Source of the DNA: a virus
Reading direction: 5' to 3' (one strand)
IMG/VR virus record: IMGVR_UViG_3300017746_000060
Location: 1-34,345 of that record
Length of the DNA: 34,345 bases
Both the position numbers and the translations under genes were made by a program. Below the pieces are notes generated by a model. It saw only the letters and a program-made list of their open reading frames with translations. It did not search any database and was not told the origin of the DNA. The number at the start of each line of letters is the position of its first letter. Positions within the stretch are counted from its first letter, which is position 1. Of this stretch, positions 7,241-34,145 are shown one piece after another.

Positions 7241-9832
7241 TTATCTGAAGCCATCTCCGCTTCCGCTTCCATCACCTCCACTTCCGCCTCCACTACCAGA
7301 GCCCATACAACCTACACTGTCAACGAAGGTAATGTTTCCTCCATTAGGATTAACTGACAATAAATCAGCACATATAGTTGCTGTTGCAAATGGACCTAAA
7401 GATTGACCCTGGTTAACTCCACATAATGTATACTGTACATACAAGCTAGAATTGTTTGGATTATACACCGTGTGGTTAACCGCATTAGAGCCGCCCGCAC
7501 ATGGATCCGCATTAGTTGTAGGAGCAATCGTTGTAGGAGCAATCGTCGTTGTCGCTTCAGTTATATAGGGAGTACAATCTACTCCTTCTTGTTCATTTGT
7601 ACCGTTTAGATCAAACACCCAACCTATTTTATCTGCACCCCATCCAGTAGGACTAGCACTCACACATCGTGCGTAGTTTATGAAAATATTTGTGTTTACA
7701 GAAATCATTTCATCGATGAAATTAGCCTGTGAACCGTCGTATGTTATAGTCCATATACCGCCTGTAACATTACATGCTCCAGTTTGATTAAAGTTTCCTG
7801 TAAATGATGCTGATAATGGGAATGATGTATCATTAATATTTCTAGTTACACTTAATCCACCTGTTTGAGTTCCATTAGAGTCTGTTGCCCATAATGTAGC
7901 TATGATAGTTTCATCATCACCAGCTTCTAATAACACATCTTCTAGTACCGTAATAGAACCTGTACCCTGTTGTCCATTTATTGTAATTTCAATACCTTTG
8001 CCTTGACCAGCTCCACCCCCTGAACTTTCACCACTAATATCTGCCTCGTTATGAGTTCCAGATAATTCTAACCATACTGTAGTTCCATCGGTTATATTAC
8101 TTGTTGAAACTGTATAGTTAATTACAGTTCCTTCATCTACACTTGCAGTACCAGGTGTCGCAACTAACGTATTATACGTAGGTAGGGCAGGGTCTACTAA
8201 TGTAAAGTCATGCTCAACCGTACATCCATACGTTATATCAGTTATCCTTCCGTAATAATTTCCGGCTGCTAAACCGAATGGATTATACAATTGGTCGTCA
8301 TCCTGTCCAAACACTTCAAGATTATAGTTACCCGATCCGCCCGTTGCAGTCATAGTGAATGTCCCGTCAGAAGCACCTGGGTAAGTTGGGTTCGTCTCAG
8401 ACATGCCTGATTTTGCAAAGTTTGCACAATAAGTACAACTTCCATCATCGCTCGTAGCGTTCGGATCATAATTATCCGCCCCAGGATCCGTACAACCTGC
8501 ACCATATTCTGGATTAGCAAGCTGAGATACTGTTAACGTATCTGTTACCGATGCATTATTAGGGTGTTGTATTACAATATTTCCTGTTCTAGCACCCGTT
8601 GCATTAACAGCAACTGTAAAGTTTAATTCCGGATTATAGCCACTATCAAGATATGAGTTTATTGTTATCCACGCCGGTGCAGTTACTTTATCAGCACTTA
8701 GTATTAATCCAATAGTTGGTGTCGTACTGTAAGTTATTTCACCAGTTCCACCGCTATGTGGTACGTCATTAAATTGACTTACGTCACCAGAAAACGCAAT
8801 TGTTTCTGGAACATTAGTCGTTGCATTAGTTGCATTAGTTGTTGCATTTGTAGCTATTGTTGTTGCTGGTTCTCCAGTCCATGGATCTCCGTTTTCATCA
8901 ACTTCTAAATCACCAGATGGTTTTCCGTTTTCATCATTTATTACCACCGTATTACCTACAATGCCTCCATATTGATTTAGGTTTAGATCTGCAGGCTGTT
9001 CAAATATAGCAACAGTTCCAGCTACTGCACCAGCTCCACAAGGTGCTGTACAGAATTCTTTCCAACTGACATTACCATTAACATCTGCGAAAGCTCCCCA
9101 AAAGGCGCCATCACGGAATCTAATCATACCAGCCTCTACTAAATTAAGGTCTAAATTTGTCTCAGGTACTTTAAATGTACTTACATTACTTTCAAAACTA
9201 ACATTAGATTTAAAAGTAAATTTATCTAATTCTACAAAATATTCAATTATTTCTGCAGGATCTGTATTTAAATTAGTACCATAAGTCTCTGCTAATGTAA
9301 ATCTAGTCCAATCGACATCTCCATCAGTTTGTTCAGATGTACTAAGAGTAATTGCTATATTATTTGAAGTTCCAGTTCTTTGTCCATGCCAGAAAGTAAT
9401 TAATTCATCAGAAGGAGAAAGTCCTCCAACTGCATGTTTTCCAACTACTATTGTAGATCTTAAATTAGTTCTACCATTGTTATCTTGGACCTCATTAAAA
9501 TCTTGGTCTCCTAAAAATATTACTGGATGGTAATTATCTGTTGATACTTTAGGCTTAAGTATAACATATTCATTTTCAGCAGCACCATTATTAATAGGAA
9601 TAACTTTCCATCTAGAAGTAGTCTCTCCAGTTAAACCCTGAGGACCTATATCACCCTTCTCTCCTTTTTGTCCAGTCTGTCCAACAGATCCCTGATCTCC
9701 TGGATTTCCTTTTTTACCTGTAGGACCGCCACCGTTAGCCAGTATCTGGTCAAAGTTATAGTTAACCTTTTCCCACTTAATCTGGTTAGAGTCACTAGGG
9801 TGTAGTATTTCTTGTATATTGAATATGGCCAT
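7241..9832 (-). CDS. Collagen-like / BACON / SprB-repeat tail fibre or adhesin
   Basis: Likely host-recognition fibre of 863 residues. In order: an N-terminal attachment segment (KWEKVNYNFDQIL); twelve collagen-type Gly-X-Y triplets (about 35-70, GPTGKKGNPGDQ onward) that would trimerise; a beta region; a Thr/Asn/Ala linker; a BACON domain (about 332-443, with APAWITINSY and RTGNIVIQHP); a Cys-bearing motif GCTDPGADNYDPNA ... DDGSC; an SprB-like repeat (about 470-546, ATGGSGNYNLEV ... GLAAGNYYGRITD); and a Calx-beta-like domain (about 550-670). A TTIAPTT linker, a small C-terminal beta domain also encoded alone at 2048-2269, and a Gly/Ser-rich end follow. BACON and SprB modules belong to Bacteroidota surface proteins and glycan binding, so the domains were probably acquired from host-type genes. 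The ATG lies shortly after the 3074-aa stop. Confidence 0.75.
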   Translation of the reverse strand: MAIFNIQEILHPSDSNQIKWEKVNYNFDQILANGGGPTGKKGNPGDQGSVGQTGQKGEKGDIGPQGLTGETTSRWKVIPINNGAAENEYVILKPKVSTDNYHPVIFLGDQDFNEVQDNNGRTNLRSTIVVGKHAVGGLSPSDELITFWHGQRTGTSNNIAITLSTSEQTDGDVDWTRFTLAETYGTNLNTDPAEIIEYFVELDKFTFKSNVSFESNVSTFKVPETNLDLNLVEAGMIRFRDGAFWGAFADVNGNVSWKEFCTAPCGAGAVAGTVAIFEQPADLNLNQYGGIVGNTVVINDENGKPSGDLEVDENGDPWTGEPATTIATNATTNATNATTNVPETIAFSGDVSQFNDVPHSGGTGEITYSTTPTIGLILSADKVTAPAWITINSYLDSGYNPELNFTVAVNATGARTGNIVIQHPNNASVTDTLTVSQLANPEYGAGCTDPGADNYDPNATSDDGSCTYCANFAKSGMSETNPTYPGASDGTFTMTATGGSGNYNLEVFGQDDDQLYNPFGLAAGNYYGRITDITYGCTVEHDFTLVDPALPTYNTLVATPGTASVDEGTVINYTVSTSNITDGTTVWLELSGTHNEADISGESSGGGAGQGKGIEITINGQQGTGSITVLEDVLLEAGDDETIIATLWATDSNGTQTGGLSVTRNINDTSFPLSASFTGNFNQTGACNVTGGIWTITYDGSQANFIDEMISVNTNIFINYARCVSASPTGWGADKIGWVFDLNGTNEQEGVDCTPYITEATTTIAPTTIAPTTNADPCAGGSNAVNHTVYNPNNSSLYVQYTLCGVNQGQSLGPFATATICADLLSVNPNGGNITFVDSVGCMGSGSGGGSGGDGSGSGDGFR
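7515..7544 (-). repeat. 15-base tandem repeat, two copies, in the 863-aa gene
   Basis: GTTGTAGGAGCAATC is present twice in exact tandem (7515-7529 and 7530-7544) and encodes the TTIAP linker. Being a multiple of three, gain or loss of a unit would change linker length without breaking the frame. Confidence 0.7.
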
Positions 9833-9835: not shown

Positions 9836-12800
9836 TTATGACGTTATTTTTACCATAGGTCTAATTCTATAAGAATAACCTAATCTTTTATTATATATCA
9901 ACCTAAAATTAAGGGGCTTTTGTTCGTGGGACGAAAATGTAAAGTTTTGATCGTAAACGTAGTTATTATTGTCTAAAGCATCAACAGAATCTACACTTTC
10001 TACTTGAGATCCTTGACCTTTAATCCTTTGTGTATATAGTTTAATTTGACTAATTCCAAACACGTTTATTAAGTTCTTTCCAATATAGAGTTGGGCGTCA
10101 TCTTTCAGCGTAGTTTTATCATCAGCCGAATTTGCAGCTAGTACATATTTTGTAATAGTATCTAACACACCATCAGCACTTAATTTTTTATTTATTGTAA
10201 AATCTATATAGAAGTCTAATACAACTCTATTCTTATCCTCAAACTGTACAATATCTGTTGTATTAGTAGAGTTAGCTAAAATATCGTCTAATTCTTCTTC
10301 TGTTCTTACACGAGCAACATCAAAGTCTAGCATCGTATAACTGTCTTTAATCTTCATAATAGTTGAAGCTAAATAAGATCTTTCCTCTTTAGTTTCAAAT
10401 GTTCCAGGCACTTCTTCTAAAAGACCACCTGATAAAGCCCTAGTATAATAGTTTTTATCCCATGAAGATTTAAACACATGCACATCTTTTTTGTCGATAG
10501 CAACCTCTCCTATCAATGGGTATAAAGGCGGCTTATCAGAAGATACTGATAATTTAATTACACCACTAGATTTAAATTCATTTACTTTTCTATAGAAGTG
10601 GTTCTTAATATAACCCCATTGGCTATCATGAGTGCCTCCATCATAAATATAACCTAAGTTAAAAGAAACACCACATCTATTATATCGTTTGTAATAATCT
10701 TTAGCTAACTGAATCTCTTCAGTACTAGTTAGAGAATGTTTATACATTTGCTCTTCTAATTCTAATTCAACAATATTCGAAGTATTTTGAAGAGTATTTG
10801 TTTTCATGTGAGCGTATACATCTGTAAATGTCACGACCGGAGTTGTATCAATAGTATATCCACCGTTATGTCTAATTAAGAATGGATAATAAGTTCTCGT
10901 TAGTCCTAAATTAAAACCAATATTACCAGAAGATAATTTAAACGACTCAGGCTTATCATCATCTACTTCAGTATTAACTTCAGCCTGTTTAATAAATTCA
11001 ACGCCATCTTCTAATAAGATAATAAATTTATTAAGAGCTATAGTTCCATCTAACTCTACTGTTGAATAAGTAACTTTATCTGGGTTTCTTAATAACATCT
11101 CCGCCATATCTTGTGCACCTAAAGATTCTAAGATATATTTGTACGCATTAATCCCTCCACCCTTGTAAACATATTCAGCATTATATTGCAAGTAGCCTGG
11201 TAGGTTATCTAATGTTGTTTCCACCGGAGTTCCGTTTGTAATATCTTGAGGAGGTCTTGCAAGTATTATTTCAGTTTGTCCACCTAAATTAGAAATATCT
11301 AATTGAATTTTCTGAAGACCAAACGCAGTATTTATATCTACGATAATACTACCATACTCATCATCTTCATTTTTATTAATTTGTTCTAAAAACTGTGGAA
11401 GGCTTCCGTCTGCGTGTGGTAAACCATTCACTATTAAATAATTATCAGCAGACGTATCCGAAAAGTTAGCATTAGCTAAATCTAAGTGACCATCAACTTT
11501 TACATCAGAATACTTAAATGTACCCTCTTCGTTATTCCATACCAATGAGTGGTTTAGTTCATATAATAACTTTCTAGTTAGGGTTTGATCTGCCCATAAA
11601 TCATCTAGTCTTAAAGAGATAAAGAATACTACAAACTTAAATTTCTTATTTTGTATTACCTCATACTCAATTCCGTTAGAATCTTCTGATGTTTTTACAT
11701 TTAATACAGTACTAAATCTATATCCATTAAATTCAGAAGATTTAACAAAATCAACTGGACTTGTAGATGTGAATTCCTTTCTAGATTTAAAAATAACTTT
11801 TAAACCTTTAAATATAGATTCAGCAAACGCAGTATCGTTACCACCATTAACTAATGTATACTTTTTCTGTCTATTAGTTTTAACAAAGGTCTTGTATGAA
11901 TTTTCACCTTTAGTTTCAAATCCTTCAGTTACAAAAAATCTATCAAAGTAATCATAATTAATATTCTTAAACATAGAAGGAGTCATTTCAAATCCTTCCA
12001 TAAAGTTAAGATAACTAAATGATTCGTTTAATTTATATTCTGGGTTAGTTGAAGTCCCGTTATTTTCTTTAAGGTATTTTGGTAAGTTGTTAATATAGAA
12101 CCACTCGTGGGTCATTCCCAACCTATCTCTACCTGCAACAGAAAGATCTGCTGAGAAGTTAGATCTACCAAACGCCTCGTTTGCGTTTAAGTAATAAGGT
12201 TGTTCTCTAACAGTTAGTGTATCTTTTAATACCCACTTGTTAATTGAAGGAACGACTCTACTCCTTATAGCGTTTTCTTTTAAATAGTTCTCTTTTAATC
12301 TATCATATTCACTTTCAACTAAGTCCTCATTAAATGTATCTGTTATTTCATCTGCCAATACTCCAGATAATCCAGAAAAATAGCTAAGAGGTGCTGTTAA
12401 ATAATCAGTGTTATCTCTTTCTCCAAATGGATATATGTCACTTTGGTTATCTAATTCAGGCTCATAGTTAATATTATTAGCAGTTTCGTATTTTAATTCT
12501 TTTATATCCGAGTTTGAAGTATCATAAAAATCAAAGTTCATATCGTGAATATCAAATGCAGAAAATAAACCTAATGTTACTAGGTTATCTGCAAAGACAT
12601 TTACTTCGCCTGATTCTAATGTGTTTTTTCTTTCTAATACTAGCTTTTTATATTGTAAAGGCAATCTTTCAATATCATCTACAATATCAATAACTTTATT
12701 GTAAACGCCCTGTGAGCTAGTTTCTAAATAATCATTAACATTAATATCAGCCACAGAATCTAAAGTTGTTAATATAGATTTACCACCAGAGTTACCACCG

Positions 12801-15800
12801 TTAAAGAAATAGATTTTACTATTTTTAAATACTTCAGAAGTATTGCCGGTTAGTTTTAATCTTAGTACATTTTTAGGCTCATACGTGAGTTCATTATCTC
12901 CCTCAACAGTTACCCAGTCATTTGCATTATCGTTCGGCACTGCGATCCCTGATTGCATTAATCTATATCCAAGAATATCATTCTTAATATAAAGATGATC
13001 TGCTCCATCATAAGTCAATGCTGTAAAACCATTGTCTACTGAGTTAATAGATTTAACTAACGCAGATGCAATTTCAGCATTAGTTCCATTTGAGGAAAAT
13101 GCTGTTGTATTAAAATGTCCTGGCAATAAAGCATCTGACCCAAAGAACATATTGTTCGATAGATCGTAAGGTACTTGTGTGTACTCGATTCTAGCTAATG
13201 TTGTATTAGAACCAGATAATGGAGATATTGAAGGTTTTAACGGTCTTAGCGTACATTTATTTTCATAAAATATAATATCATCGCCATCTGCTTTCCAATA
13301 AAGATTATCATCAATCCCAAGTCCTTTTAGCACCTCAACAGTTTCTTCAACAGTATTTTGTAGTGTTAACGAGTAATTTACATTACCATCAGTTTCTACA
13401 AGAGTAAGTCCAAACACAAAAGTGTCTCCAGGAGTAAATCTTGTAAAATTAATTCTATAATCTTGTTCTTTAGAAGGGAATATAGCTATCCTATCATTAT
13501 TAGCCGGAGTACCATTAATTGTAAGTTTAACAAAATCGCTACCAGCTGATTCATTTACTAAAGTATCAATAGATCTACCAACCGGAGCAAGTTTAATCTC
13601 ACCTGGTATTTTATTATTAGAATCTTGAACCTTTAACTCTAAAACCGACGTATCATAGAATGTCGGAGAAATATTATAGAACTCATTAGAAATATGAGCA
13701 TAACCCAACGTTGGAGTATTTCTCATTAATGCTACTGGAGGTATTGCTGACTTTACATCATCATTAATATATGAGTTTAGGGTTTTAAACCTAAGCAGTC
13801 CATTATTAGAAGACTCTAAAGATCCATACCCTGAATCAATATCATTTACATATAAGCCAAAGTATCTGTTTACAGCATAATCTTCTGTACCATCATCATC
13901 AAATAAAAACTCTAAGTTAATAATATTAGCACATGCTAATTTATTTCTTTCAAAACCACCAGTAATTAAATCATTTTCATTAATAATAGTTTGGTCTTGT
14001 TTTACAAAATCATCAAATAAATATTCACCTTTGTTTGTAAAACCACCTTGTTTTAAATCAATACCATTAAAGTTAGTTCTTTCGTTTTCACTAAAGTTTA
14101 CGTTAATTGGGTTACTTGGGAATAACTCAGACTGAACATGGTTTCTAATATAAGTACCAATGCTAGATTCTCTAGTTAAATCAAAAGTTTTTATTAACTC
14201 ACTATTTTTTAGAATTTCACCCATATTATCAAAGCTACTTTGATTATCAAAATCTAAAATAGCAGCAGGATCGCTAACTCTAAATATTACAAAATTATTA
14301 GGTATATTTTTATCTAACCAAATAGGAGCCAACATTCTAAAATCTTCATCATGTAGTTTAGAATAATTATATGTAGTCCCATAATGATAATCTTCTTCAA
14401 TTTGCTTCTCAAAAGTCTCTTGAACAGTCAAATCTGAAAACCTAGATTTTACATTGTATATTAAATCAGATGGTGTTTTATTAGCATTAAAAAACTTAGC
14501 TAAATCATAAGACCATTTACTATCTTTATTAACTGCCCATTTTTTATATTCAACCGCCGCTAATTCTTTACTAGCATCAATAGACTCAATATACATTTCA
14601 CCTGTACTATTGACTACTAATTTAGCATTTGTAGACAGTTTAGGGTTTGTTCTTAATAAAGGCTTAGATAGATTATCTAATTCGTAATTCTTTTCTAAAT
14701 CAAAGTTAGGAATAGATCTATTAATAATTTCAGCATCATCTACAGAATCTAAAACAAACTCTGTGAAGTTTTGCTCATCTAATAAACAGCTTCTACAATC
14801 TTCTCTATATTCTATTACTGCTCCACTTGTAAATCCTAATTCAACTGGATTAATTTCAATAACCCTAATATCATCACCATATTCTGGTCTTTCTAATAGA
14901 ATATTAACAGCATCATCATAATTAACTGCAAATATTTTATGTTGGATAGTAACACATTCTAACATACTATCACCTCCGATATTTATAGCAACTCCGTTGT
15001 TTTGACTTGGCTCTATAACATCTATCAGTTTTTTAATATATGACGTTGAGTTTGAAGCAAACGTATGTAATCCATCTGTTAAATATAAACTGTAATATGG
15101 TTTACCTGCTTCTATTTTAGCAGAACATGCATAAAACGCATAAAATACATTTACTCTAGATTCTAAAAGTTTCTCTTGGTCCGATATTTCACATTGATCT
15201 CCAGGAAGTCCAAGACAATAAGTTGAATTACCAGCTGGTTTAACAAACTGTGTATTACAATCACCTAATATTGAATTTGTATTCGCATACTCTAATGCGT
15301 TATCGGTCTGATTAACACCAAGCCATGAATAAGTATATAAAGCATTTTCTGTACTTAAGTAACCACTATCGTTTTCATTATCCCATATTGCAAATCTAAG
15401 ACTAGGTACATATCCAACCTCTGGGTCATCTATTGCACCATTTGCTTCGTCAACTGCAATAAAGGTAGTGTTATCCCATAGCCCATCGTAGTTAACTTCA
15501 CTGGCAGTTGCCTCAGTAGTGTATATTAATATTTGATTTTGAACTACATACTCTAGAGCTTTTTGATGTGTTGAAAGATCAACATAATTCGCGCCGCCCA
15601 CTATATCGTCGTAACGAGCATCTATTCTAGCCCATAAGTTAACTAAAGTCAGGCCATCTTCTCCAGCAAGACAAGCCGCGTCCACAGCTAATCTATTATC
15701 TTGACTATAATAAGCCTTAAAATTAAACGTTACGTACTCTATCGGTACCGGGCATAAAAATAACTTTACAGGATTATCAGGGTCTGTAAAATTATCTGCC

Positions 15801-18800
15801 CATACTCCTTGATTTGCATCATTTGTTGTAAACTCATAGTATATGAATTCACCATTACCATTTTTTCTAGTACCATCGTTATAGAAACCTGTCGATACAC
15901 ATAAAGATGCCGGAGCATACGTGTTTGTAATATCAGATGGATTATTTCTATACTCAGGCTGATTAGCATAATATTGACTAGTAAATAATTGACCTCCTGC
16001 AGCTATTACATCAGTAAGAGTTGGTTCATCCATTTCTACTGCAGTCCCCGATCCTGTTGGACCAATTACGTTTTGATAAACAATAGTCTGACTAACTGTA
16101 TATTCTAATTCTTGAGCACATATCTCATCAACATTAGTAGAGAAGTTAATTTCAATTGGCCATGCATTATCTAAACTGGTTTCACAATCAACAACTTGTA
16201 TAATTTCACCATTAGCTGCAATTTTAGCAGCTCTAATTATTACCTCACCGGCAATATCTTGTTGAATTGAAATCCAAGGCTGGGTATCAACAAATGCTGG
16301 GTCTGGGTTTTTCGCAACTTCATCGTCGTTTAGTGTTGTATCATTATATAATGAGTCACCCGCAGCTAAACCTGTAATATCTGTAACATCCGATGCTTTT
16401 AAGTAAAGAGGCACGTTTCTAGTACCATCCTCACAGGATTGTGAAGCAGTTGATCGCCAAATACCAGACGCTGTTATACCACTGATATAAAGTACTCCAG
16501 TGACATTAAATTTTAATGTATAAGTATCGGATCCACCGTTTGCATCTTCTACCTTAATAGTAAACACTTCTAAGACTGTAACCCCTGGAGATATATCCCA
16601 TTGATCTGAGTTATATGTCCATACACCAGTAATTTGATTTATATTGAGTGTACCTTGTTGCGAAGCCGCGTTAGTAGCGCTTACCCATTCCGCAGACCAT
16701 GTTAAAATTGCAGTTTCAGCATCAGATGCTGTAATATTATCACTGTCGGAATTATACGCGTCATATTGATCTAGCTGCTTTACTACTTCAGTTTGGCCTG
16801 TTGAGCCATTAAATGAAATAACAGGATCAGTATTTAACGCAGCTGTTATTGTAATAGTAATCGACTTTGCATCAGATTTTAATGGTGTATCATCGTCATC
16901 TTCTGCTTTATACCAGAATGTGTCTTGTTTCTGCGGTTGCCCTGGAGACATTGTAGCACCGGTATATGTATAAGTTAATATACCATTACTACCATATACT
17001 ATATTACCATGCGTCCCTGATTTAACTTCATCTACAACAAATTGAACATCATTATTTCCATTCGCGTCTGACCAATAGTAGGTTAAATCATTAGTTCCGG
17101 TATTAGTATCTGAAACATATTGACCTATGTTAAATAATGTTGTATCGTTCTGTTGAGCTGCAGAAATACTTCCAGTAATATCACTAGCGCTTGGCGCTGA
17201 ATTACCAGGAGGTGTTATTGTTAAAGTAGCAGTATATGTAGGAGAATCATCATTCCCGTCATTTACTTTATATTCAAAACTAATAGACTGAATAGCCCCT
17301 GAACCAACTGCAGCATTAAGATCTATCTGAGCAGTTAAAGTACTAGGACCTCCTGCTAAGGTGTGCGGAACTGTGCTAATAGTTGAAGGAGTACCACTTG
17401 AATTATCTATTAATACAGACGCATCACTACCTATTGTTAATCCACTAATATTAGTAATTATTACACTTAAGTCATCATTATCCGCATCATTAATAGATAG
17501 CGAGCCAGACCACCCACTAGTAAAGTCTAGAAAATTAATATCAACATTACTAGGGTTTGCGTCCCATGATTGAGACCTACTTATATCACCACCCGTTGGA
17601 GCTGTATTACCTGAATTTTGTGTTATTTTAAAAGCTGTTGCAGTTACATTAGGATTATCAGGGTGTCGAAGTGTCACGTTGACCTCTCTTGACGATCCTG
17701 TATTATTTTCAGTTGCTTGGAACCTTAATTGTCCACCGTTAATATCAAAGGCATTAGTACTTGCTGTAAGCCATGCTGCTGAAGAGTCATATAGAATATG
17801 ATTATCAACATCAAAGTTATTTGTAGCTCCAGTGATAGTAACCTGTTTTGTCTGGAATGGTGTTCCGAGCGGTGCTATTACAATATCACTAGTATCGGAC
17901 ATTGAAATACTTGCAGTAGCTAAACCACCAGTTACTTGAACATCACAATCAATTGTACCAGAATTAAGATAGCCAGCAGGTATATTAACAGTTAGTGTAT
18001 AAGTGAAGGTACCATCTAGATATAAATCATTATTAGAGTTGGTAATGCTATTAAAAGTTGCAGTACCGGTAGTTGAAAAGTCGGCAGCCGTAATCTGCTC
18101 ACCAATCACACCATTGGCAATTGTTAATGTCTCTGTAGAACATGTAAATGCTCCTAACGTTGCATTAGTCGCGTTAGTTGGAGCAGTAGTTGCAGCAGTC
18201 GCGTTAGTTGGAGCAGTAGTCGCAGCTATATCACCAGTAAAGTCACAAGAAATATATGCACCTCCAGAATTTGAATAACCACTTATAGGTGGTTCTATTT
18301 GAGTGATTGTATAAGTTGTAGTTCCATCACCATCGCCGTCGTAAGTATATACACTTGGAGTTATTATATAGTCGGAATTAGCAGGAGCCACTAACCAGGT
18401 AACTGCAGCTGGTAAAATTGTATCTCCAGCATTACCATTAGCAATTGTCGGGCCTGCTACGCTACAATCATATAGCGGGTCATTCGATACTACAGTTACA
18501 TTAGTTTGAACACATGCTTTATTACCATCTACATCTCCACCGCTCCAACCGCTTGGTAGTGAAAATTTAACACGATACGTGTTTTCACCATAAACGAAGC
18601 CCGTGGATGTTGTTGCGTCTTGTACAACCTGGCCCGTAGCATCACTTCCTAATCTAACTTCAATCAGCGATGGCATATTACCACCCTTAACGTTAGTACC
18701 GTATGTAATTGTAATTACATCTCCTGCGGTATTCTCTCCCGCTCCACTTGGATTAGCACCAATATATCCAAAATCATCCGGATCACTACAACCCCATGCC

Positions 18801-19060
18801 GGCATTGACTGGACACTAAGTATGCCACCGTCATTAGCAACTTGCCATATTTGACGACCATCGTCTTCAATCCAGAATTGATTTGCACCAGTAAACGTTT
18901 GAGACTGGTCTACTGTGCCTTGGTAAACGACGTCAGATGCAGTAGTACCTGCTGCGTTAACATCTTCTAATCCAGTTGTAGGTTTAGGGTTTAACCTAGC
19001 AGCATCAACTGCCGAGTCGTAATCTGAATAACCTGTATTTCTAAATTGGTAATTAGCCAT
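9836..19060 (-). CDS. Giant structural protein with N-terminal adhesin domains (3074 aa)
   Basis: The largest gene in the window. The first 30 residues (MANYQFRNTGYSDYDSAVDA) may anchor it. Three related Cys-containing beta domains follow (about 89-195, 196-275, 300-380; endings such as IPAGYLNSGTIDC); the second and third share TIANG near their starts and are split by the linker ATTAPTNATAATTAPTNA. A BACON domain (about 383-483) precedes two or three cadherin/VCBS-like domains (about 484-850), marked by NTAPTGGD, NSAPSASD, and acidic DADNDD/DDDD stretches likely to bind calcium. The remaining 2200 residues are not recognised; they are Asn/Asp-rich, with Cys clusters around CRSC and no membrane segment. 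It is likely a large baseplate-attached fibre or tail-tip protein for binding host surface glycans. It has its own candidate promoter and leader hairpin. The adhesin modules sit at the N-terminus rather than the usual C-terminal tip. Confidence 0.7.
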   Translation of the reverse strand: MANYQFRNTGYSDYDSAVDAARLNPKPTTGLEDVNAAGTTASDVVYQGTVDQSQTFTGANQFWIEDDGRQIWQVANDGGILSVQSMPAWGCSDPDDFGYIGANPSGAGENTAGDVITITYGTNVKGGNMPSLIEVRLGSDATGQVVQDATTSTGFVYGENTYRVKFSLPSGWSGGDVDGNKACVQTNVTVVSNDPLYDCSVAGPTIANGNAGDTILPAAVTWLVAPANSDYIITPSVYTYDGDGDGTTTYTITQIEPPISGYSNSGGAYISCDFTGDIAATTAPTNATAATTAPTNATNATLGAFTCSTETLTIANGVIGEQITAADFSTTGTATFNSITNSNNDLYLDGTFTYTLTVNIPAGYLNSGTIDCDVQVTGGLATASISMSDTSDIVIAPLGTPFQTKQVTITGATNNFDVDNHILYDSSAAWLTASTNAFDINGGQLRFQATENNTGSSREVNVTLRHPDNPNVTATAFKITQNSGNTAPTGGDISRSQSWDANPSNVDINFLDFTSGWSGSLSINDADNDDLSVIITNISGLTIGSDASVLIDNSSGTPSTISTVPHTLAGGPSTLTAQIDLNAAVGSGAIQSISFEYKVNDGNDDSPTYTATLTITPPGNSAPSASDITGSISAAQQNDTTLFNIGQYVSDTNTGTNDLTYYWSDANGNNDVQFVVDEVKSGTHGNIVYGSNGILTYTYTGATMSPGQPQKQDTFWYKAEDDDDTPLKSDAKSITITITAALNTDPVISFNGSTGQTEVVKQLDQYDAYNSDSDNITASDAETAILTWSAEWVSATNAASQQGTLNINQITGVWTYNSDQWDISPGVTVLEVFTIKVEDANGGSDTYTLKFNVTGVLYISGITASGIWRSTASQSCEDGTRNVPLYLKASDVTDITGLAAGDSLYNDTTLNDDEVAKNPDPAFVDTQPWISIQQDIAGEVIIRAAKIAANGEIIQVVDCETSLDNAWPIEINFSTNVDEICAQELEYTVSQTIVYQNVIGPTGSGTAVEMDEPTLTDVIAAGGQLFTSQYYANQPEYRNNPSDITNTYAPASLCVSTGFYNDGTRKNGNGEFIYYEFTTNDANQGVWADNFTDPDNPVKLFLCPVPIEYVTFNFKAYYSQDNRLAVDAACLAGEDGLTLVNLWARIDARYDDIVGGANYVDLSTHQKALEYVVQNQILIYTTEATASEVNYDGLWDNTTFIAVDEANGAIDDPEVGYVPSLRFAIWDNENDSGYLSTENALYTYSWLGVNQTDNALEYANTNSILGDCNTQFVKPAGNSTYCLGLPGDQCEISDQEKLLESRVNVFYAFYACSAKIEAGKPYYSLYLTDGLHTFASNSTSYIKKLIDVIEPSQNNGVAINIGGDSMLECVTIQHKIFAVNYDDAVNILLERPEYGDDIRVIEINPVELGFTSGAVIEYREDCRSCLLDEQNFTEFVLDSVDDAEIINRSIPNFDLEKNYELDNLSKPLLRTNPKLSTNAKLVVNSTGEMYIESIDASKELAAVEYKKWAVNKDSKWSYDLAKFFNANKTPSDLIYNVKSRFSDLTVQETFEKQIEEDYHYGTTYNYSKLHDEDFRMLAPIWLDKNIPNNFVIFRVSDPAAILDFDNQSSFDNMGEILKNSELIKTFDLTRESSIGTYIRNHVQSELFPSNPINVNFSENERTNFNGIDLKQGGFTNKGEYLFDDFVKQDQTIINENDLITGGFERNKLACANIINLEFLFDDDGTEDYAVNRYFGLYVNDIDSGYGSLESSNNGLLRFKTLNSYINDDVKSAIPPVALMRNTPTLGYAHISNEFYNISPTFYDTSVLELKVQDSNNKIPGEIKLAPVGRSIDTLVNESAGSDFVKLTINGTPANNDRIAIFPSKEQDYRINFTRFTPGDTFVFGLTLVETDGNVNYSLTLQNTVEETVEVLKGLGIDDNLYWKADGDDIIFYENKCTLRPLKPSISPLSGSNTTLARIEYTQVPYDLSNNMFFGSDALLPGHFNTTAFSSNGTNAEIASALVKSINSVDNGFTALTYDGADHLYIKNDILGYRLMQSGIAVPNDNANDWVTVEGDNELTYEPKNVLRLKLTGNTSEVFKNSKIYFFNGGNSGGKSILTTLDSVADINVNDYLETSSQGVYNKVIDIVDDIERLPLQYKKLVLERKNTLESGEVNVFADNLVTLGLFSAFDIHDMNFDFYDTSNSDIKELKYETANNINYEPELDNQSDIYPFGERDNTDYLTAPLSYFSGLSGVLADEITDTFNEDLVESEYDRLKENYLKENAIRSRVVPSINKWVLKDTLTVREQPYYLNANEAFGRSNFSADLSVAGRDRLGMTHEWFYINNLPKYLKENNGTSTNPEYKLNESFSYLNFMEGFEMTPSMFKNINYDYFDRFFVTEGFETKGENSYKTFVKTNRQKKYTLVNGGNDTAFAESIFKGLKVIFKSRKEFTSTSPVDFVKSSEFNGYRFSTVLNVKTSEDSNGIEYEVIQNKKFKFVVFFISLRLDDLWADQTLTRKLLYELNHSLVWNNEEGTFKYSDVKVDGHLDLANANFSDTSADNYLIVNGLPHADGSLPQFLEQINKNEDDEYGSIIVDINTAFGLQKIQLDISNLGGQTEIILARPPQDITNGTPVETTLDNLPGYLQYNAEYVYKGGGINAYKYILESLGAQDMAEMLLRNPDKVTYSTVELDGTIALNKFIILLEDGVEFIKQAEVNTEVDDDKPESFKLSSGNIGFNLGLTRTYYPFLIRHNGGYTIDTTPVVTFTDVYAHMKTNTLQNTSNIVELELEEQMYKHSLTSTEEIQLAKDYYKRYNRCGVSFNLGYIYDGGTHDSQWGYIKNHFYRKVNEFKSSGVIKLSVSSDKPPLYPLIGEVAIDKKDVHVFKSSWDKNYYTRALSGGLLEEVPGTFETKEERSYLASTIMKIKDSYTMLDFDVARVRTEEELDDILANSTNTTDIVQFEDKNRVVLDFYIDFTINKKLSADGVLDTITKYVLAANSADDKTTLKDDAQLYIGKNLINVFGISQIKLYTQRIKGQGSQVESVDSVDALDNNNYVYDQNFTFSSHEQKPLNFRLIYNKRLGYSYRIRPMVKITS
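18168..18227 (-). repeat. 30-base tandem repeat, two copies, in the 3074-aa gene
   Basis: Two nearly identical 30-base units (18168-18197 and 18198-18227, starting GTCGCGTTAGTTGGAGCAGT) encode two copies of the linker AATTAPTNAT (about residues 279-298). The linker separates two similar beta domains. Copies differ at two positions, which suggests recent slippage. Confidence 0.7.
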
Positions 19061-28120: not shown

Positions 28121-28393
28121 TTATCTAGTTCTTTCGTCGTCTTTTTCTACTGTAAAGTTACTAAAATTCTTTAAAGATCTAACCTGGTCTAATAGCGCTA
28201 AAAAATAATCATTAACAAATATAAGAAACTCTCTCATTGTTTGATTTCTCCTAATATGAGGAGATATTTGTTTATCAAGCAAACCATGTTTTTTGTAATC
28301 ATACTTAACGTTAACATTATCATCTTTCCTATGTTTGGAAATCTTGTATAATCGTTTACGTCTGTATACTAATAGATCTTTAAATAGACTCAT
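28121..28393 (-). CDS. Small basic protein between gp6- and gp7-like genes (90 aa)
   Basis: No family recognised. The first 45 residues are very basic (LLVYRRKRLYKISKHRK); the second half carries a hydrophobic helix (REFLIFVNDYFLALLDQV) that may pack against a neighbour, and the end is charged. Its stop and ATG sit within one to two bases of the neighbouring wedge genes, so it is expressed with them and is probably a small wedge or assembly component. No catalytic motif is seen. Confidence 0.6.
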   Translation of the reverse strand: MSLFKDLLVYRRKRLYKISKHRKDDNVNVKYDYKKHGLLDKQISPHIRRNQTMREFLIFVNDYFLALLDQVRSLKNFSNFTVEKDDERTR

Positions 28394-30222
28394 TATCTTA
28401 TAGATTTTCTATTTCCAGCTTGTACTCTAGTGTAAATAGTTCTAGGTACTGCAGTTGCGTCAAAGTTAATTGAAAGTGCTGCTTCAGCATTCATTAATGC
28501 ATCATCAACTATTTCATCGCCATCTCTATCTTGCCAGCCACCTCTGAAAACAGCAACCTCTTCTTTATCCATAATAATATCTCCCCATTCATCTAGTCCA
28601 GCTATATCGTATGGTATTTGAGTTGTTTCATCAACATCCACCGTTTTAACTTCTTCTATTTGTTTAAAGAAAATATATTTTTGTTTACCATTACCTATGT
28701 CTTCTAGAACTACAGGCTCTTGTGGTACAACTGTTACAGTCGTAGACACATAATAACCTAATCTTCTTGCAGTTTCTTCAGTCTCAGATATAAATCTTAC
28801 ATTAACCGCATCGATGCCGTCGATTGATTCTAAGATATACACAATATCAGACTTAGGTAGTTTATCTCTTCTTGTAACGTTTAGCATATAATCACTTACT
28901 GCTCTTCTAACGTTAATAAATATTTCTTGTTTAGTATATCCTTCAAAATATCTAATATTAATATCCATACTATATTTTCTAATCTGTGGTTTTACAAATA
29001 CTACTTCAGTCGTAACCATTTGCTGTCCACTATCTTGAATGACTTGTGACATTTTATCATATTCATTTTGATCAAAAAACATTTCATTTATTGGGATCGA
29101 AAAATAATCCTGATCTGCTAATAACTTTCTTCTAGCATCTGGTATTGCAAAAATGTAAATTACATTGTCATCATCTAAATATTGATCCGCAGTCGTATTA
29201 TAGGCATCCACATACGAGAACATCCCATATCTTGATAAGAAATACTCATAGTTATCTGGAGTTGCTAAAACGTATGATTTAGAAGCCAGGGGCGCCATTA
29301 ACTTAGTAAACTCAGACGACTCTTTATCTGCTCCCATTTTAGGAGAAGAAGTTACTGTTAATTCTAAATATTCATTTAAATCAAACTCATTACCGTTTGA
29401 ATCAGAACCTTCTGCGTCCCATTTAAAAATAATATCTTGTGCATCATCTAAGTTACCTTGGAAACCTACATGCTTAAGATATTCTACCTCAATTAAATTA
29501 CCAGCACCTGGTATAGCACCAAAGTTACCAGTTCCAAAATAAACATCTAATCCACCGGAAATACCAGTTTTAAGAATATACGCCTTTTCGTTACTTAATA
29601 GATCGTACATAGAATCATGTTTTGTCCACTTCTCACCATTAACTGAAACGCTAACTTTAGAATGATCTGTTAAAGAGGCTGTTTGTACATTATATGATTG
29701 CATTGACTCTCCAGTTCCAGTAAAGGTTTGAGATTCAAATTTACCCTGAACAATTGCACATTTTATAGCGTACTTATTTGACTTTTCTAATCTAAATCTA
29801 TCTTGCGAAGTTAATAGAGTATACATTAATCCATTTAGTTCACATTTTAACTCTGATCTTGCATCAATATTTAATCCTGTTCCTGCAATTTTACCAAGAT
29901 CTGCTCCAACTGCCCATTTAAATTCAATCTCACCAGTTGCTGCAAATCCTCTAGTTGCATCATGGCCTGTCAATCTAGACATACCATATATTGATTCTGG
30001 TTGTTGTGCAGTATATATGTTTTGTTCTACTAAAGAGTCTTCTATATAGAACATAATTAACTCACCTAACTCAGCCATAACAGAAATAATCTGAGCAAAT
30101 GGAGATGCTTCAGTAAATAAGGTATTCGCACGCTTGTAAACTCTTGCGATATATGTTCGAGCATCGGTCTTAATTTGATTAGCCGATGTTCTTAGTGTGC
30201 TTAAAAATTTTAATTCTGCCAT
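28393..30222 (-). CDS. Baseplate wedge protein, gp6 / J-like
   Basis: The 609-residue protein matches the size of T4 gp6 (660 aa), the ring-forming wedge protein that opens the baseplate. The start has the usual helical region (YIARVYKRANTLFTEASPFA ... LVEQNIYTAQQPESIYGMSR). Next come a beta domain (GFAATGEIEFKW) and the J-like core with PDNYEYFLSRYGMFSYVDAY. A second J-type feature, QIRKYSMDINIRYFEGYTKQ followed by RRAVSDYMLN and DIVYILESIDGIDAVNVRFI (about 457-477), is characteristic of the family. It follows the gp25-like gene by seven bases, the order seen in many contractile tails. The gp6/J assignment is firm at family level. Confidence 0.85.
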   Translation of the reverse strand: MAELKFLSTLRTSANQIKTDARTYIARVYKRANTLFTEASPFAQIISVMAELGELIMFYIEDSLVEQNIYTAQQPESIYGMSRLTGHDATRGFAATGEIEFKWAVGADLGKIAGTGLNIDARSELKCELNGLMYTLLTSQDRFRLEKSNKYAIKCAIVQGKFESQTFTGTGESMQSYNVQTASLTDHSKVSVSVNGEKWTKHDSMYDLLSNEKAYILKTGISGGLDVYFGTGNFGAIPGAGNLIEVEYLKHVGFQGNLDDAQDIIFKWDAEGSDSNGNEFDLNEYLELTVTSSPKMGADKESSEFTKLMAPLASKSYVLATPDNYEYFLSRYGMFSYVDAYNTTADQYLDDDNVIYIFAIPDARRKLLADQDYFSIPINEMFFDQNEYDKMSQVIQDSGQQMVTTEVVFVKPQIRKYSMDINIRYFEGYTKQEIFINVRRAVSDYMLNVTRRDKLPKSDIVYILESIDGIDAVNVRFISETEETARRLGYYVSTTVTVVPQEPVVLEDIGNGKQKYIFFKQIEEVKTVDVDETTQIPYDIAGLDEWGDIIMDKEEVAVFRGGWQDRDGDEIVDDALMNAEAALSINFDATAVPRTIYTRVQAGNRKSIR

Positions 30223-30229: not shown

Positions 30230-30586
30230 TTATCTTAAATTTACTTTGATTATATACTCGTTATTAACAGTAATATCAATGAACGCAATATCTCTAACTT
30301 CACCACGCATAAACTTAACGCTTACACTGGTTCTGTACTTTCTAGAAAGAGGTACGTAATTAGCTAGTTGGCCTTGTATTTCATTTTTAATTTGAAATTC
30401 ATTTTGACCTAAACTATATACAATATCTTCTAAGTTACAACCAAACCCTGGAGTACCTAAAACATCTCTCTTTCTTGTGAAAAGAGCTGTTTCTATTTGA
30501 GCCAACAATTGTTCAATTTCACTTACGTTTTGAACAATCCCTGTCTGATAGTTAGGGTCTCCTATATATTTTATATAAAAATCCAT
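30230..30586 (-). CDS. Baseplate wedge protein, gp25-like
   Basis: Small (118 aa) protein of the gp25/lysozyme-like baseplate family that nucleates sheath assembly by seeding the sheath mesh. The family signature is RKRDVLGTPGFGCNLEDIVY (residues 38-57), equivalent to the G-x-P-x-FG-x-x-L motif, followed by an amphipathic helix (EIQGQLANYVPLSRKYRTSV) and two closing strands (DIAFIDITVNNEYIIKVNL). It lies directly upstream of the gp6-like gene. The lysozyme-like name refers to sequence similarity; this family is structural, not enzymatic. The leader is AT-rich (ACATATATAA) with no Shine-Dalgarno sequence. Confidence 0.85.
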   Translation of the reverse strand: MDFYIKYIGDPNYQTGIVQNVSEIEQLLAQIETALFTRKRDVLGTPGFGCNLEDIVYSLGQNEFQIKNEIQGQLANYVPLSRKYRTSVSVKFMRGEVRDIAFIDITVNNEYIIKVNLR

Positions 30587-30606: not shown

Positions 30607-31449
30607 TTATGAGTGGAACATCCAGTCCACTCCTTCGTCTCCCTTTATCTCCTCAATAATTGACTCTAATTCGGTGTCTCCCATGTCTTTTATTGCGTCG
30701 TAGTCGAATTCCACATTACCAGGTAATGCAAACTTAAAAATACCAAGCTTAGCGCCTAGTGATTGCTTAATCTTAGCAGAACAATATCTAAAAAAGATTT
30801 CGTCGTCAAATAGTGCACAATCCGGAATCGTTTCGTACACATCAAGTATTAGATCTCCCTTCGGAGTATCTCCCATAATCTTTAATTCTCCAGTCAGTCT
30901 AGAGTATTGAAAAGAAATAGGGTTTTCTAAAATCTGTCTAGCCATATCTGCTAAAGACTGATTTAATACATAATATTCTAATTCAGCTGCAGACTCTGCT
31001 GCTCCAGAGCCATCGTACATACCTCTAAATAACATCTTCTCGATAGCGAAATCTCCACCACCCTGGAATCTTACATCTAATCCACCACCGGTTGAGTTCC
31101 AACCAGATGCTATATCATGTACTCCAAATACTGAAAATACAGAACCAGATCCATCTACACTTGCTCCAGGTAAATTTAATGTTCTATTAGTTTTAAAGTA
31201 TTGGCTACTAAATACCGAGTGCGGTACATGATAATAGTTTTCTAAAACAGAATCTTCATAGTTTTTATAGAACCATTTCTTAGCTCTTTTAACTATATTA
31301 ATAATTTCTCTTTGTGGTAAATTCACTGGCACCATACACGCCCCTGTTAGTTCATCACCTAACTCTTGTAAAAAGGCATTTAAGCAACTATCACCAAAGG
31401 ATCTCCCGGTGTTTAAATTACTATCATTACCACTTCTAATTTCACTCAT
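30607..31449 (-). CDS. Neck protein, gp13-like
   Basis: Closes the head and links it to the tail. The 280-residue length is near T4 gp13 (309 aa). The second half follows the known pattern of gp13 from marine T4-like phages: ELEYYVLNQSLADMARQILE, then FQYSRLTGELKIMGDTPKGD, then DLILDVYETIPDCALFDDEI, then a helix AKIKQSLGAKLGIFKFALPG ending NVEFDYDAIKDM and an acidic helix. The first 60 residues are helical (REIINIVKRAKKWFYKNYED), as in the family. A Gly-rich loop (GWNSTGGGLDVRFQGGGDFA) is larger than I would expect. The gene overlaps neither neighbour but follows the amidoligase by one base, so the enzyme and the neck protein are made together. Confidence 0.7.
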   Translation of the reverse strand: MSEIRSGNDSNLNTGRSFGDSCLNAFLQELGDELTGACMVPVNLPQREIINIVKRAKKWFYKNYEDSVLENYYHVPHSVFSSQYFKTNRTLNLPGASVDGSGSVFSVFGVHDIASGWNSTGGGLDVRFQGGGDFAIEKMLFRGMYDGSGAAESAAELEYYVLNQSLADMARQILENPISFQYSRLTGELKIMGDTPKGDLILDVYETIPDCALFDDEIFFRYCSAKIKQSLGAKLGIFKFALPGNVEFDYDAIKDMGDTELESIIEEIKGDEGVDWMFHS

Positions 31450-31450
31450 T

Positions 31451-32764
31451 TTATGATTTTATTTTTTTACTTACCACAACTTCAGTTTCATCTGAAAATC
31501 TAGCATTAGGTCCAACTCCGCCTTCTCTAAATATGCCGCCTTCCATTCTACCTTTAAAAATACCATCTCGTCCAAAAACAAAACAGTTTTTTACTGTTAC
31601 GCTGCCGTGTACAAAACAAGATTCTACTTTAGAATCCATGATTTCACACCCTTTATATATTTGTGATCTTAATATTTGTGCTCCGTTTACTTGACCACCG
31701 TATATTTCACTATTTTCTATATTACCTGATAGCTCACAATCAATAAATTCAAAACCGTCTAGCAAATATGCTACTTTAAATTTACCATCTTTAACTTGGA
31801 CTGTTGAATAGTCTGAGTCGTAATTAATTATACCTTCTTCCATTGTACCATTTGATAGCAAATCTAATACTTTATGTTTAAATCTATCCCATTGTACGTT
31901 AATTACCGTAGGATCTGATTGTAAATCTACTAATATATCTATCTTAGGCCAATATTTATTTACGGCGGTATAATCTCTTAACATTGCCATTAGAGGTTCA
32001 TTCTTTCTTAAAATACGTTGTAACTCGATTTTATTAGCAGAATTAAACCTTGGATCTCTACAAGACCTCCAAATTGCTAAGATAAATCTATCCGCTAGAG
32101 TTAAAATATCTTCTTGTCTCTTCTCATAATCTTTACCGCCAATATATCTAAATTCTAAATAATTACTTTGAGCTTTTTCAAAGTTAATACCATAATATTT
32201 AGTATTAGCAAAAGTAAAGTTGTCCTTATTAATTAAATCAGCATTATAGTAAAACGCTTCATGTTTAGGCATAATCCATTTAATAGACTTCGCATAAGTA
32301 GAATCTTCTCTATTTGGAAAATACTTATACACACGATCTTCGTCAAACTCAAGTATGAATTTCAACACATCCATGTGCTGGATCATATTTGGTTCTTCTA
32401 AATAATCCGGATTGAATGACATATTAAGGTGGATCGATGCTCGATCAGATGTGTAACCGTTTTCACGAATCCATCCTAACATTTTAACAATAACTAACCT
32501 AGCATTTCTATAAGGCATAGGACCAGTTACTAATTCAATTAGCCCAGCACCACCAGACATATCTGGTTCCATCTTGAACACATCTGCTGACGGTACAAAA
32601 TCTGAATGAGCCTTTTCTTCTAGTTGAATCTTTCTATCTAAAAGTTCAGATAAAGACTTTTGAGTCTTTTTTAATTCTAGATTAGAATAGAACTCAAATT
32701 CTATGCCCATTTGGCTGGCAGCTAGTACCTCGTGCCTTGTTGAATTGCTTTTTAACTTTTGCAT
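31451..32764 (-). CDS. Amidoligase-like enzyme with C-terminal beta-helix
   Basis: Resembles the glutamine-synthetase-fold amidoligase family, ATP-dependent enzymes that form amide bonds between carboxyl and amino groups. Expected motifs appear in order: GIEFEF (Glu22, Glu24; metal-binding pair), KMEPDMSGGAGLIELVTGPM (64-83, Glu77), a HxN motif in ASIHLNMSF (His112, Asn114) and YLEFRYIGG (Glu204, Arg206). Residues 210-335 are helical. From 338 to 416 short Cys/Gly-containing strand repeats (FIDCELSGN, IENSEIYGG, ILRSQIYKG, CFVHGSV, CFVFGRD) suggest a beta-helix, unusual for this family. It lies between the S1-like and neck genes, ahead of the baseplate genes, and a promoter-like box is upstream. 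Substrate is unknown: a virion protein, host wall peptide or surface polymer are options. The domain call is from motifs only. Confidence 0.65.
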   Translation of the reverse strand: MQKLKSNSTRHEVLAASQMGIEFEFYSNLELKKTQKSLSELLDRKIQLEEKAHSDFVPSADVFKMEPDMSGGAGLIELVTGPMPYRNARLVIVKMLGWIRENGYTSDRASIHLNMSFNPDYLEEPNMIQHMDVLKFILEFDEDRVYKYFPNREDSTYAKSIKWIMPKHEAFYYNADLINKDNFTFANTKYYGINFEKAQSNYLEFRYIGGKDYEKRQEDILTLADRFILAIWRSCRDPRFNSANKIELQRILRKNEPLMAMLRDYTAVNKYWPKIDILVDLQSDPTVINVQWDRFKHKVLDLLSNGTMEEGIINYDSDYSTVQVKDGKFKVAYLLDGFEFIDCELSGNIENSEIYGGQVNGAQILRSQIYKGCEIMDSKVESCFVHGSVTVKNCFVFGRDGIFKGRMEGGIFREGGVGPNARFSDETEVVVSKKIKS

Positions 32765-32787
32765 TAATTAAGAGTATGATATTACTT

Positions 32788-32800
32788 TTCAATATATATC
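32788..32800 (-). promoter_or_regulatory. Candidate promoter box GATATATATTGAA upstream of the amidoligase
   Basis: It keeps GATATATA of the box shared by the S1-like and 64-aa genes, then diverges. The 13-base window ends 23 bases before the ATG at 32764. It is the weakest of the four boxes and would head the long unit ending with the 1218-aa gene. Confidence 0.35.
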
Positions 32801-32817
32801 AAACTCTGTGGCAATAG

Positions 32818-34107
32818 TTATTGGGGTAGTTTAAGAAATACCTTCATTGAGTCCTCGTCGATCCTAGTAATTTGTACTTCGATCTCATCTCCAACTCTGT
32901 AGGTATCTAATATATCACCTGGCAACTCACTAACATGTAGCAATCCTGTTACACCATCTTCGATGTTTACAAAGACTCCATATTCTTTTTTAGTCTTAAT
33001 TTTAGCCTTAACAACTGATGGTATTTGATACCTTGTAGAAATATTAATCCAAGGGTTAACTGTTGTAGTTTCCTTTTGAGTTAATGTAATCTTGCTGTTA
33101 GTGATAATATCTTTTACAAAGAAGTTAATTGGCTCTCCTGGCTTAATTTCCCTAGCTTTGAATTTAGCTGAAGTTTCTTCATCAAGTTCATTTGTATGAA
33201 TCATACCTGTTAAACACTTATTAAATTCAACAAATACTCCGTATTTTGCAGTACCTGTTACTAAACCTGATTTAGGCTCATCAAGTGTTTGTTTTAAATC
33301 ATTAATAGAGCTTGGTATTAGAGCTTGTAAATATTTTCTATGTGAAACCACTAAAGTACCTCGATCTGGTGAGAAGCTTACTGGTACAACATATAATTCT
33401 TCTCCAACGATAGAACTAAAGTCTGATAATTTATTAATACCTGCAAGCGATCCTGGCATAAAGCAATCTACGCCTTGTACTTTTACAATATAACCACCAT
33501 TCTCAATCATATTATTCACTGTACCGATCCAGGCAGTATTGCCCTCGTTGATCGCAGCTCTAAGATCCATGAATGTTTTATGTTTTACACCACCAGTAAT
33601 AGTTCCAGTTAATGTACCTTTAGTTTCTGTAATTAAAACTGCAGTTTCCGCTCCAGGTAAAAGTTGTCTAACTTCCTCTGATTCTTTATTAGCCTTAACA
33701 TAAACTAATTCTCTATAGTTAATGTCTATTGTAATCCATTCTTCAGTCACACCATGTATTGTACCTTCATGAATTTCACCTGCAAATAACTGAGGCTTGA
33801 TGTCCATGCTAGCACCTTTCATAATATCGTACAATTCTTGAGCATAAGGCTCGCGAGAGAATACTTGATCTCCGTCTTGTGTCTTAATATGTGGATTTGC
33901 TGTTCGGGTTGCTGTTATACAAGTTGCTTCGTAAGCTTCCCATTTGAATTCCCCTGATTCATCATAAAATTCTGAAAAATCATTACCATCATCTTCTTTC
34001 TTTTCGGTAACTTCTTGGGTTGGAGTTTGAACTGTTTCTTTTACTAGTTCTACGGTTGTTGCCTCTTGGGCTGAAGTGTTTATTCTTCGTCTTTTTTTGT
34101 CTGACAT
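32818..34107 (-). CDS. Ribosomal protein S1-like RNA-binding protein
   Basis: 429-residue protein with a Lys/Arg start (MSDKKRRRIN), an acidic linker (31-55), then four OB-fold S1-type domains: about 108-172, 190-258 (IGTVNNMIENGGYIVKV then CFMPGSLAG), 276-345 (GLVTGTAKYGVFVEFNKCLT) and 360-428 (VVKAKIKTKKEYGVFVNIED ... TGLLHVSELPGD). Domains 2 to 4 carry the G-x-V-x-x-G-F/V-x-V pattern of S1. Bacterial S1 has about six such domains, so this is a shortened version that could bind ribosome or mRNA. It is the first gene of the leftward block, with a promoter-like box 25 bases upstream. A role in steering host ribosomes to phage mRNAs is inference; a transcription or RNA-stability factor is the alternative. 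Confidence 0.85.
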   Translation of the reverse strand: MSDKKRRRINTSAQEATTVELVKETVQTPTQEVTEKKEDDGNDFSEFYDESGEFKWEAYEATCITATRTANPHIKTQDGDQVFSREPYAQELYDIMKGASMDIKPQLFAGEIHEGTIHGVTEEWITIDINYRELVYVKANKESEEVRQLLPGAETAVLITETKGTLTGTITGGVKHKTFMDLRAAINEGNTAWIGTVNNMIENGGYIVKVQGVDCFMPGSLAGINKLSDFSSIVGEELYVVPVSFSPDRGTLVVSHRKYLQALIPSSINDLKQTLDEPKSGLVTGTAKYGVFVEFNKCLTGMIHTNELDEETSAKFKAREIKPGEPINFFVKDIITNSKITLTQKETTTVNPWINISTRYQIPSVVKAKIKTKKEYGVFVNIEDGVTGLLHVSELPGDILDTYRVGDEIEVQITRIDEDSMKVFLKLPQ

Positions 34108-34132: not shown

Positions 34133-34145
34133 CATATTATATATC
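34133..34145 (-). promoter_or_regulatory. Candidate phage promoter box GATATATAATATG
   Basis: It ends 25 bases before the ATG of the S1-like gene, the same spacing as the GATATATAATAAG box before the 64-aa gene. Match is 12 of 13 bases between the two. Confidence 0.5.

Follow-up and report, generated by a model that had tools for sequence, protein, structure and literature searches.

A conserved glutamine-synthetase-like amidoligase with a predicted beta-solenoid arm precedes the neck and baseplate genes of a marine phage lineage

The stretch of viral DNA analysed here, hereafter the window, comprises 34,345 nucleotides (IMG/VR record IMGVR_UViG_3300017746_000060, positions 1 to 34,345). Its minus strand carries a gene for an amidoligase-like protein fused to a predicted beta-solenoid, preceded by a gene for an S1-domain protein and followed by genes for a gp13-like neck protein and for gp25-like and gp6-like baseplate wedge proteins (Table 1). 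A preliminary description, made from the sequence alone, had noted at this place an open reading frame with the motifs GIEFEF, HLN and LEFR in that order, directly adjacent to a gp13-like gene. Both observations were confirmed, the two frames being separated by a single untranslated base. The gp13-like family profile weakly matched a 309-aa frame at 94.0 kb in T4 (E 0.005), consistent with gene 13, and matched P-SSM2 at 8e-7. The opposite end of the structural block carries a gene for a gp32-like single-stranded DNA-binding protein (window positions 1019-1942; Pfam gp32, 8e-19).

Table 1 Features of the amidoligase locus in the window.
Feature	Positions	Strand	Details
Amidoligase-solenoid fusion gene (P0001)	31451..32764	minus	ORF of 437 aa; ATG at 32764, stop ends at 31451
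Predicted glutamine-synthetase-like catalytic domain, residues 8-240	32045..32743	minus	VIA-align Z 11.7, rmsd 3.5 over 183 residues to GS 4bax
Predicted helical linker, residues 241-306	31847..32044	minus	Secondary structure; least conserved part
Predicted beta-solenoid, pentapeptide-like, residues about 307-416	31517..31846	minus	Own AF2 model; hydrophobic period 5
Motif GIEFEF, residues 20-25 (G20, E22, E24)	32690..32707	minus	G/E/E invariant in 50 relatives
Motif EPDMSGGAGLIELVTG, residues 66-81	32522..32569	minus	E66, P67, D68, S70, G71, G72, E77, T80, G81 invariant in 50
Motif HLNMS (HLN, residues 112-114)	32417..32431	minus	H112, N114, S116 invariant in 50
Motif KYYGIN (K189-N194)	32183..32200	minus	K189, Y190, Y191, G192, N194 invariant in 50
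Motif LEFRYIGG (LEFR, residues 203-206)	32135..32158	minus	E204, F205, R206, G209, G210 invariant in 50
GATATATA box, putative late promoter	32793..32800	minus	36 nt upstream of the amidoligase start codon
Conserved inverted repeat GAGTTTGATAT..ATATCATACTC	32772..32806	minus	Overlaps the GATATATA box, shortly upstream of the amidoligase ATG
S1-domain protein	32818..34107	minus	Pfam S1, 5.9e-21; conserved upstream neighbour; own GATATATA box at 34138-34145
gp13-like neck protein	30607..31449	minus	PHROG 211 "head-tail adaptor Ad2", 3.7e-10
gp25-like baseplate wedge protein	30230..30586	minus	PHROG 43, E 0.0026; Pfam GPW_gp25 sub-threshold
gp6-like baseplate wedge protein	28393..30222	minus	PHROG 219, 1.7e-30

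The profile search that had been proposed as a check on the amidoligase assignment gave a match to PF12224 (Amidoligase_2) over residues 18-131, with 24.4 bits against a Pfam gathering cut-off of 22 (E 3.1e-5). This was the only family reported for the window protein in a Pfam search up to E 1, which returned no glutamine synthetase (GS) family model; a GS model was likewise absent from the NCBIfam matches up to E 0.1, and the PADLOC anti-phage defence models yielded zero matches up to the same value. PF12224 was matched by 25 of 50 relatives (E up to 0.1). Counts based on PF12224 understate the spread of the family, because a Pfam scan of whole huge-phage records missed most of the copies that a family profile detected. 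Neither a signal peptide nor a membrane segment is evident in the protein sequence. GS-like amidoligases (Amidoligase_2) were reportedly described by Iyer et al. in 2009; the window protein shares with them the GxExE, HxN and ExR motifs, the GS fold and the above-cut-off Pfam score, but differs in its C-terminal pentapeptide-like beta-solenoid, its apparently late neck/wedge context and the lack of an amidotransferase partner.

The AlphaFold2 (AF2) model of the window protein, built with 50 sequences, reached a pLDDT of 92 and a pTM of 0.85. A GS fold, whose absence would have spoken against the amidoligase assignment, was recovered in residues 8-240: all 50 VIA-align rows listed for this region were glutamine synthetases or close GS-family ligases, and the best Foldseek matches were likewise GS (E 0.0016). 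Z scores to glutamine synthetases and to GmaS (gamma-glutamylmethylamide synthetase) were about 10-12 at 9-15% identity, whereas the remainder of the GS chain was unaligned and no GS family model was matched. The linker that follows averages 2.93 bits of column information, against 3.44 in the N-terminal catalytic part. The preliminary description had also placed a beta-helix at residues 338-416; structure prediction recovered it, with an earlier start at about residue 307. Modelled alone, the C-terminal 133 residues again formed a solenoid (pLDDT 93), aligning with Z 9.5 to a synthetic solenoid and 9.3 to the pentapeptide-repeat protein 2j8k, while Foldseek alone gave only weak matches (E 0.004 or worse). 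The fold (Z 8-9.3) and the period of five residues in its hydrophobic positions are those of the pentapeptide solenoids NP275/276, MfpA, AlbG and EfsQnr, although the window solenoid is short and its repeats degenerate. Pfam Pentapeptide_4 matched 8 of 50 relatives (best 5.4e-6) and no pentapeptide model matched the window protein, for which we accordingly use the term pentapeptide-like rather than assigning it to the pentapeptide-repeat family. The suggestion that the helix binds glycans found no further support, pectate-lyase-like solenoids, a common shape, appearing only lower in the match list. The AF2 models carry no ligand geometry, and E77 in EPDMSGGAGLIELVTG is a presumed metal ligand by analogy with the GS family.

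At least 549 related stretches were found in IMG/VR by alignment query; the closest were 51-100% identical among the matches listed, with more divergent stretches turning up in additional scans. By tblastn, full-length relatives with 32-39% identity were retrieved in LR756500-LR756504 and LR745206, and partial ones in Agrobacterium phage Atu_ph07 and Salicola phage SCTP-2. A pattern scan of 84,980 bacterial and archaeal species genomes gave 17 pattern matches and zero true relatives, and the search for solved homologues by sequence returned weak solenoid matches only. Across 50 aligned relatives, G20, E22, E24, E77, H112, N114, K189, N194, E204, R206 and G209 were invariant. The invariance of E22, E24, H112, N114, E204 and R206 extended down to 31-38% identity; E22, E24, H112, E204 and R206 were also conserved in Atu_ph07 and SCTP-2, and the G/E/E of GIEFEF was invariant in an alignment of 20 sequences including these two phages. 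All three motifs were intact in 127 of the 128 copies read, the sole exception (L079) being a frameshifted assembly with a broken S1 gene as well, and the solenoid arm was present in all 123 IMG/VR relatives except one frameshifted fragment. Pairwise dN/dS was near 0.07 for most comparisons, in the catalytic and solenoid parts alike, and distances between amidoligases tracked those of gp6 (r 0.93) and gp13 (r 0.92) in 46 phages. The family is thus widespread and under purifying selection. With a GS fold and an intact, conserved Glu/His/Arg active site (E22, E24, H112, N114, E204, R206), its identification as an amidoligase stands. A chance motif match is ruled out by the agreement of profile, fold and selection, and a pseudogene or dead enzyme by the intact motifs together with the low dN/dS.

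In the marine clade to which the window belongs, the gene order S1 - amidoligase - gp13 - gp25 - gp6 - 90 aa - 932 aa was held down to 45% identity. The S1 gene lay immediately upstream of the amidoligase in 112 of 118 loci of sufficient length, and a script placed gp13 immediately downstream of it in 112 of 122 loci. Of the ten exceptions, four were overlapping starts or the frameshifted assembly, in which gp13 does follow on inspection, and the other six came from divergent lineages (L121-L126). Baseplate-hub-like genes, including one with a Phage_base_V OB domain, were found upstream of S1 in relatives. In every marine locus inspected, the gene for the 90-aa protein (window positions 28121-28393) separates gp6 from the gene for the 932-aa protein; the 90-aa protein had no family match worth naming.

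Within the window, seven copies of the GATATATA box lie on the coding strand and none on the opposite one. Over all loci, it was found within 60 nt upstream of 115/130 frames labelled as amidoligase and 109/116 S1 frames, as against 0/118 for gp13, 1/114 for gp25 and 0/99 for gp6. Since the box precedes the amidoligase and S1 genes and not those of gp13, gp25 and gp6, the neck/wedge unit seems to begin at the amidoligase, which, judging from this pattern, probably heads a late neck/wedge transcript. We interpret the box as a putative T4-like late promoter, by analogy and as a sequence pattern rather than a mapped promoter. ATATA was invariant at the box position upstream of the amidoligase in 18 loci, including divergent huge phages; the box also precedes the amidoligase in several huge phages with different neighbours, and ATATATA boxes stand before far more ORFs in the divergent huge phages than random 60-mers predict. 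The ATATATA box was absent before the amidoligase of four loci (L084 and L122-L124). In the marine clade, an inverted repeat overlaps the box; TGATATATA and a portion of its second arm were invariant in 13 loci, the RNA fold had -6.7 kcal/mol (z -1.8), and the GAGTTTGATAT/ATATCATACTC repeat was looked for before S1 and not seen there; it is possibly an operator or a leader hairpin.

Complete huge-phage genomes, including those of 634, 636, 642 and 735 kb, have been published (PMC7162821). A single full-length amidoligase copy was present in each of five complete huge phages of 462-735 kb. In the 462 kb phage (W01), gp13, gp6 and S1 all lie no more than 12 kb from it, whereas the 636 kb phage has gp13 3 kb and gp6 168 kb away from the amidoligase. 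In the 642, 634 and 735 kb phages, about 390, 350 and 210 kb, respectively, separate it from gp13 in record coordinates, and gp6 is >330 kb away (less when the genomes are taken as circles, still >180 kb). The cluster of neck, wedge, S1 and amidoligase genes is thus intact in the marine relatives and in the 462 kb phage, and its members are scattered over hundreds of kb in W02-W05 (LR756502, LR745206, LR756501, LR756504; 634-735 kb). The neck/baseplate operon of the preliminary description accordingly applies to the marine clade, with gp13, gp25-like and gp6 genes downstream, hub-like genes upstream and a shared putative late promoter; the link to the neck genes is lineage-specific. Three Lak genomes matched the gp13 profile and gave no match to the amidoligase profile at E 1 in the same search that detected the positive records; Lak-A1 has gp6 and S1 besides gp13. 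Because the Lak genomes keep gp13 without a detectable amidoligase, necks and baseplates of this type do not generally depend on the enzyme. T4 and P-SSM2 also matched the gp13 profile and not that of the amidoligase, and RaK2 matched neither. The amidoligase is therefore a lineage-specific addition, or was lost specifically in the Lak lineage, and stands outside the general T4-type assembly machinery. The S1-domain gene is present, though dispersed, in the 634-735 kb huge phages.

Other phage-borne relatives show how the window gene differs from described systems. The best match in the viral structure library (BFVD) was A0A6J5PQ40, a 439-aa protein of an uncultured Caudovirales phage for which no function is given; it has the same architecture over its full length (TM 0.84 both ways) but only 21% identity, and is followed in the list by many annotated amidoligases. 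The structural matches also include I2FLP2 of Pseudomonas phage tf and S0A2A0 of Cellulophaga phage phi14:2. LUZ24/tf-like podoviruses and phi14:2 also carry a GS-fold ligase, although theirs belong to cassettes beside replication genes, with further genes for a COOH-NH2 ligase or ATP-grasp protein, a class-II glutamine amidotransferase and a gamma-glutamyl cyclotransferase, whereas the window gene is solitary, its neighbours being S1, gp13, gp25 and gp6, with no ATP-grasp, COOH-NH2 ligase or cyclotransferase. The class-II amidotransferase search covered the GATase_6 model, which was absent from all 13 related records, including the five complete huge phages, and was detected in 14 of 14 control genomes. 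Membership of a class-II amidotransferase cassette is ruled out on this ground. A GS-type ligase could do without GATase_6 if it takes free ammonia, or an amine, directly. Atu_ph07 gp196 and SCTP-2 gp124/gp125 are divergent homologues of the catalytic part, with longer catalytic regions and no aligned solenoid. The SCTP-2 copies are in tandem (gp125, gp124; L087:8924-12684) and both are annotated as hypothetical, and gp196 falls inside the gene range 170-215 of Atu_ph07, one of the three clusters coding for most of its virion proteins (PMC6102473). We found no literature on this amidoligase-solenoid fusion or on virion-borne amidoligases, and the huge-phage (PMC7162821) and aquatic-lineage (PMC12619734) papers do not mention the protein by name. 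It is an enzyme of known kind in a new fusion and a new, widespread and strongly conserved genomic setting.

Weighing the computed features together (fold, active-site residues, selection, solenoid, gene order, promoter-like box and lack of a GATase_6 partner), we give a probability of about 0.4 to the reading that the gene encodes a late cytoplasmic ATP-dependent carboxylate-amine ligase that uses its solenoid arm in modifying a late phage protein. Ligase activity, late timing and cytoplasmic location are what we infer; the identity of the substrate and of the amine is a guess. The GS mechanism is established for the GS fold. Following it, the binding site for metal ions and ATP would comprise E22/E24, E77, H112 and E204, with R206 holding the phosphates or an acyl-phosphate, roles assigned from the family motifs. 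The carboxylate of a Glu/Asp side chain or of the C-terminus of a late phage protein would be activated with ATP and joined to an attacking amine, so that a virion part would be modified before or during assembly. Expression would be late in infection; in the window's lineage the gene would be the first of a unit that would also yield gp13, gp25 and gp6. The short, presumably rigid beta-solenoid is likely to serve in substrate docking, oligomerisation or assembly rather than in catalysis, since it is kept in intact members and unaligned in Atu_ph07 and SCTP-2. The lack of an evident export signal and the late transcript probably shared with neck and wedge proteins make a late phage protein the most economical choice of substrate, although a gene can be co-transcribed with virion genes without acting on a virion protein. 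The preliminary description had proposed a virion-linked ligase that would crosslink or tag a structural protein or a host surface peptide; this is a hypothesis, against which speak the separation of the gene from the baseplate genes in the 634-735 kb phages and the Lak genomes with gp13 and no detectable copy. A narrower proposal is conceivable, if on balance doubtful: a virion-maturation amide ligase, produced alongside the neck and baseplate wedge and guided by its beta-solenoid, that would attach an amino acid or amine to, or form isopeptide bonds in, a protein of the tail or neck.

GS-fold ligases act mostly on small molecules, and the nearest solved folds of the catalytic domain are precisely glutamine synthetases and GmaS, so that the product might instead be a gamma-glutamyl-amine or short peptide used in late DNA condensation, packaging or redox. 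Some related aquatic phages have also been reported to carry "glutamine synthetase" genes (PMC12619734). A small substrate, however, offers no obvious use for a solenoid arm that is near-universal among the relatives; no partner enzyme gene is adjacent, and GATase_6 is missing from the five complete huge phages. We hence regard this alternative as rather unlikely. Much the same low weight goes to a late modification of a host protein or surface precursor (a translation factor, a peptidoglycan peptide or a target serving exclusion of other phages), for which the neck operon would be merely a convenient late slot. The S1-domain protein encoded upstream may act in translation (phage S1 is discussed in PMC7162821), and the dispersal of the gene in huge phages and its lack in the gut Lak phages are as might be expected of a host-adapted function. 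Yet no secretion signal is evident, and within the marine clade the gene has evolved in step with virion genes and sits directly before gp13 throughout.

The tf and phi14:2 cassettes near replication genes recall the DNA or nucleotide hypermodification or peptide tagging suspected for other phage amidoligases; we hold such a role improbable here, the window gene standing alone among late structural genes and none of the 13 related records having GATase_6. Least probable of all is a non-catalytic structural or chaperone protein with a retained GS fold. Its location among neck and baseplate genes would suit such a protein and solenoid folds are common scaffolds, but invariant E22, E24, H112, N114, E204 and R206 are unexpected in a dead enzyme. 

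Phage amidoligases have been annotated for years and, to our knowledge, no substrate has been demonstrated for any of them. The amidoligase-solenoid family is common to abundant marine phages and to the largest known phage genomes. As a solitary, single-copy and strongly conserved gene in a late-type context, it allows the substrate to be sought among late phage proteins. If the substrate is indeed a virion protein, a contractile tail would carry an enzyme-made amide modification or crosslink, and we know of no precedent for this chemistry in such tails.

Elsewhere in the window, a 3074-aa protein (9836-19060) and a collagen-like tail-fibre protein (7241-9832) each contain a BACON-like domain, sub-threshold in the former; this domain is best known from Bacteroidota. 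The hosts of moraphages, a related aquatic lineage, are mostly Bacteroidota (PMC12619734), and five huge phages over 634 kb were predicted to infect Bacteroidetes (PMC7162821).
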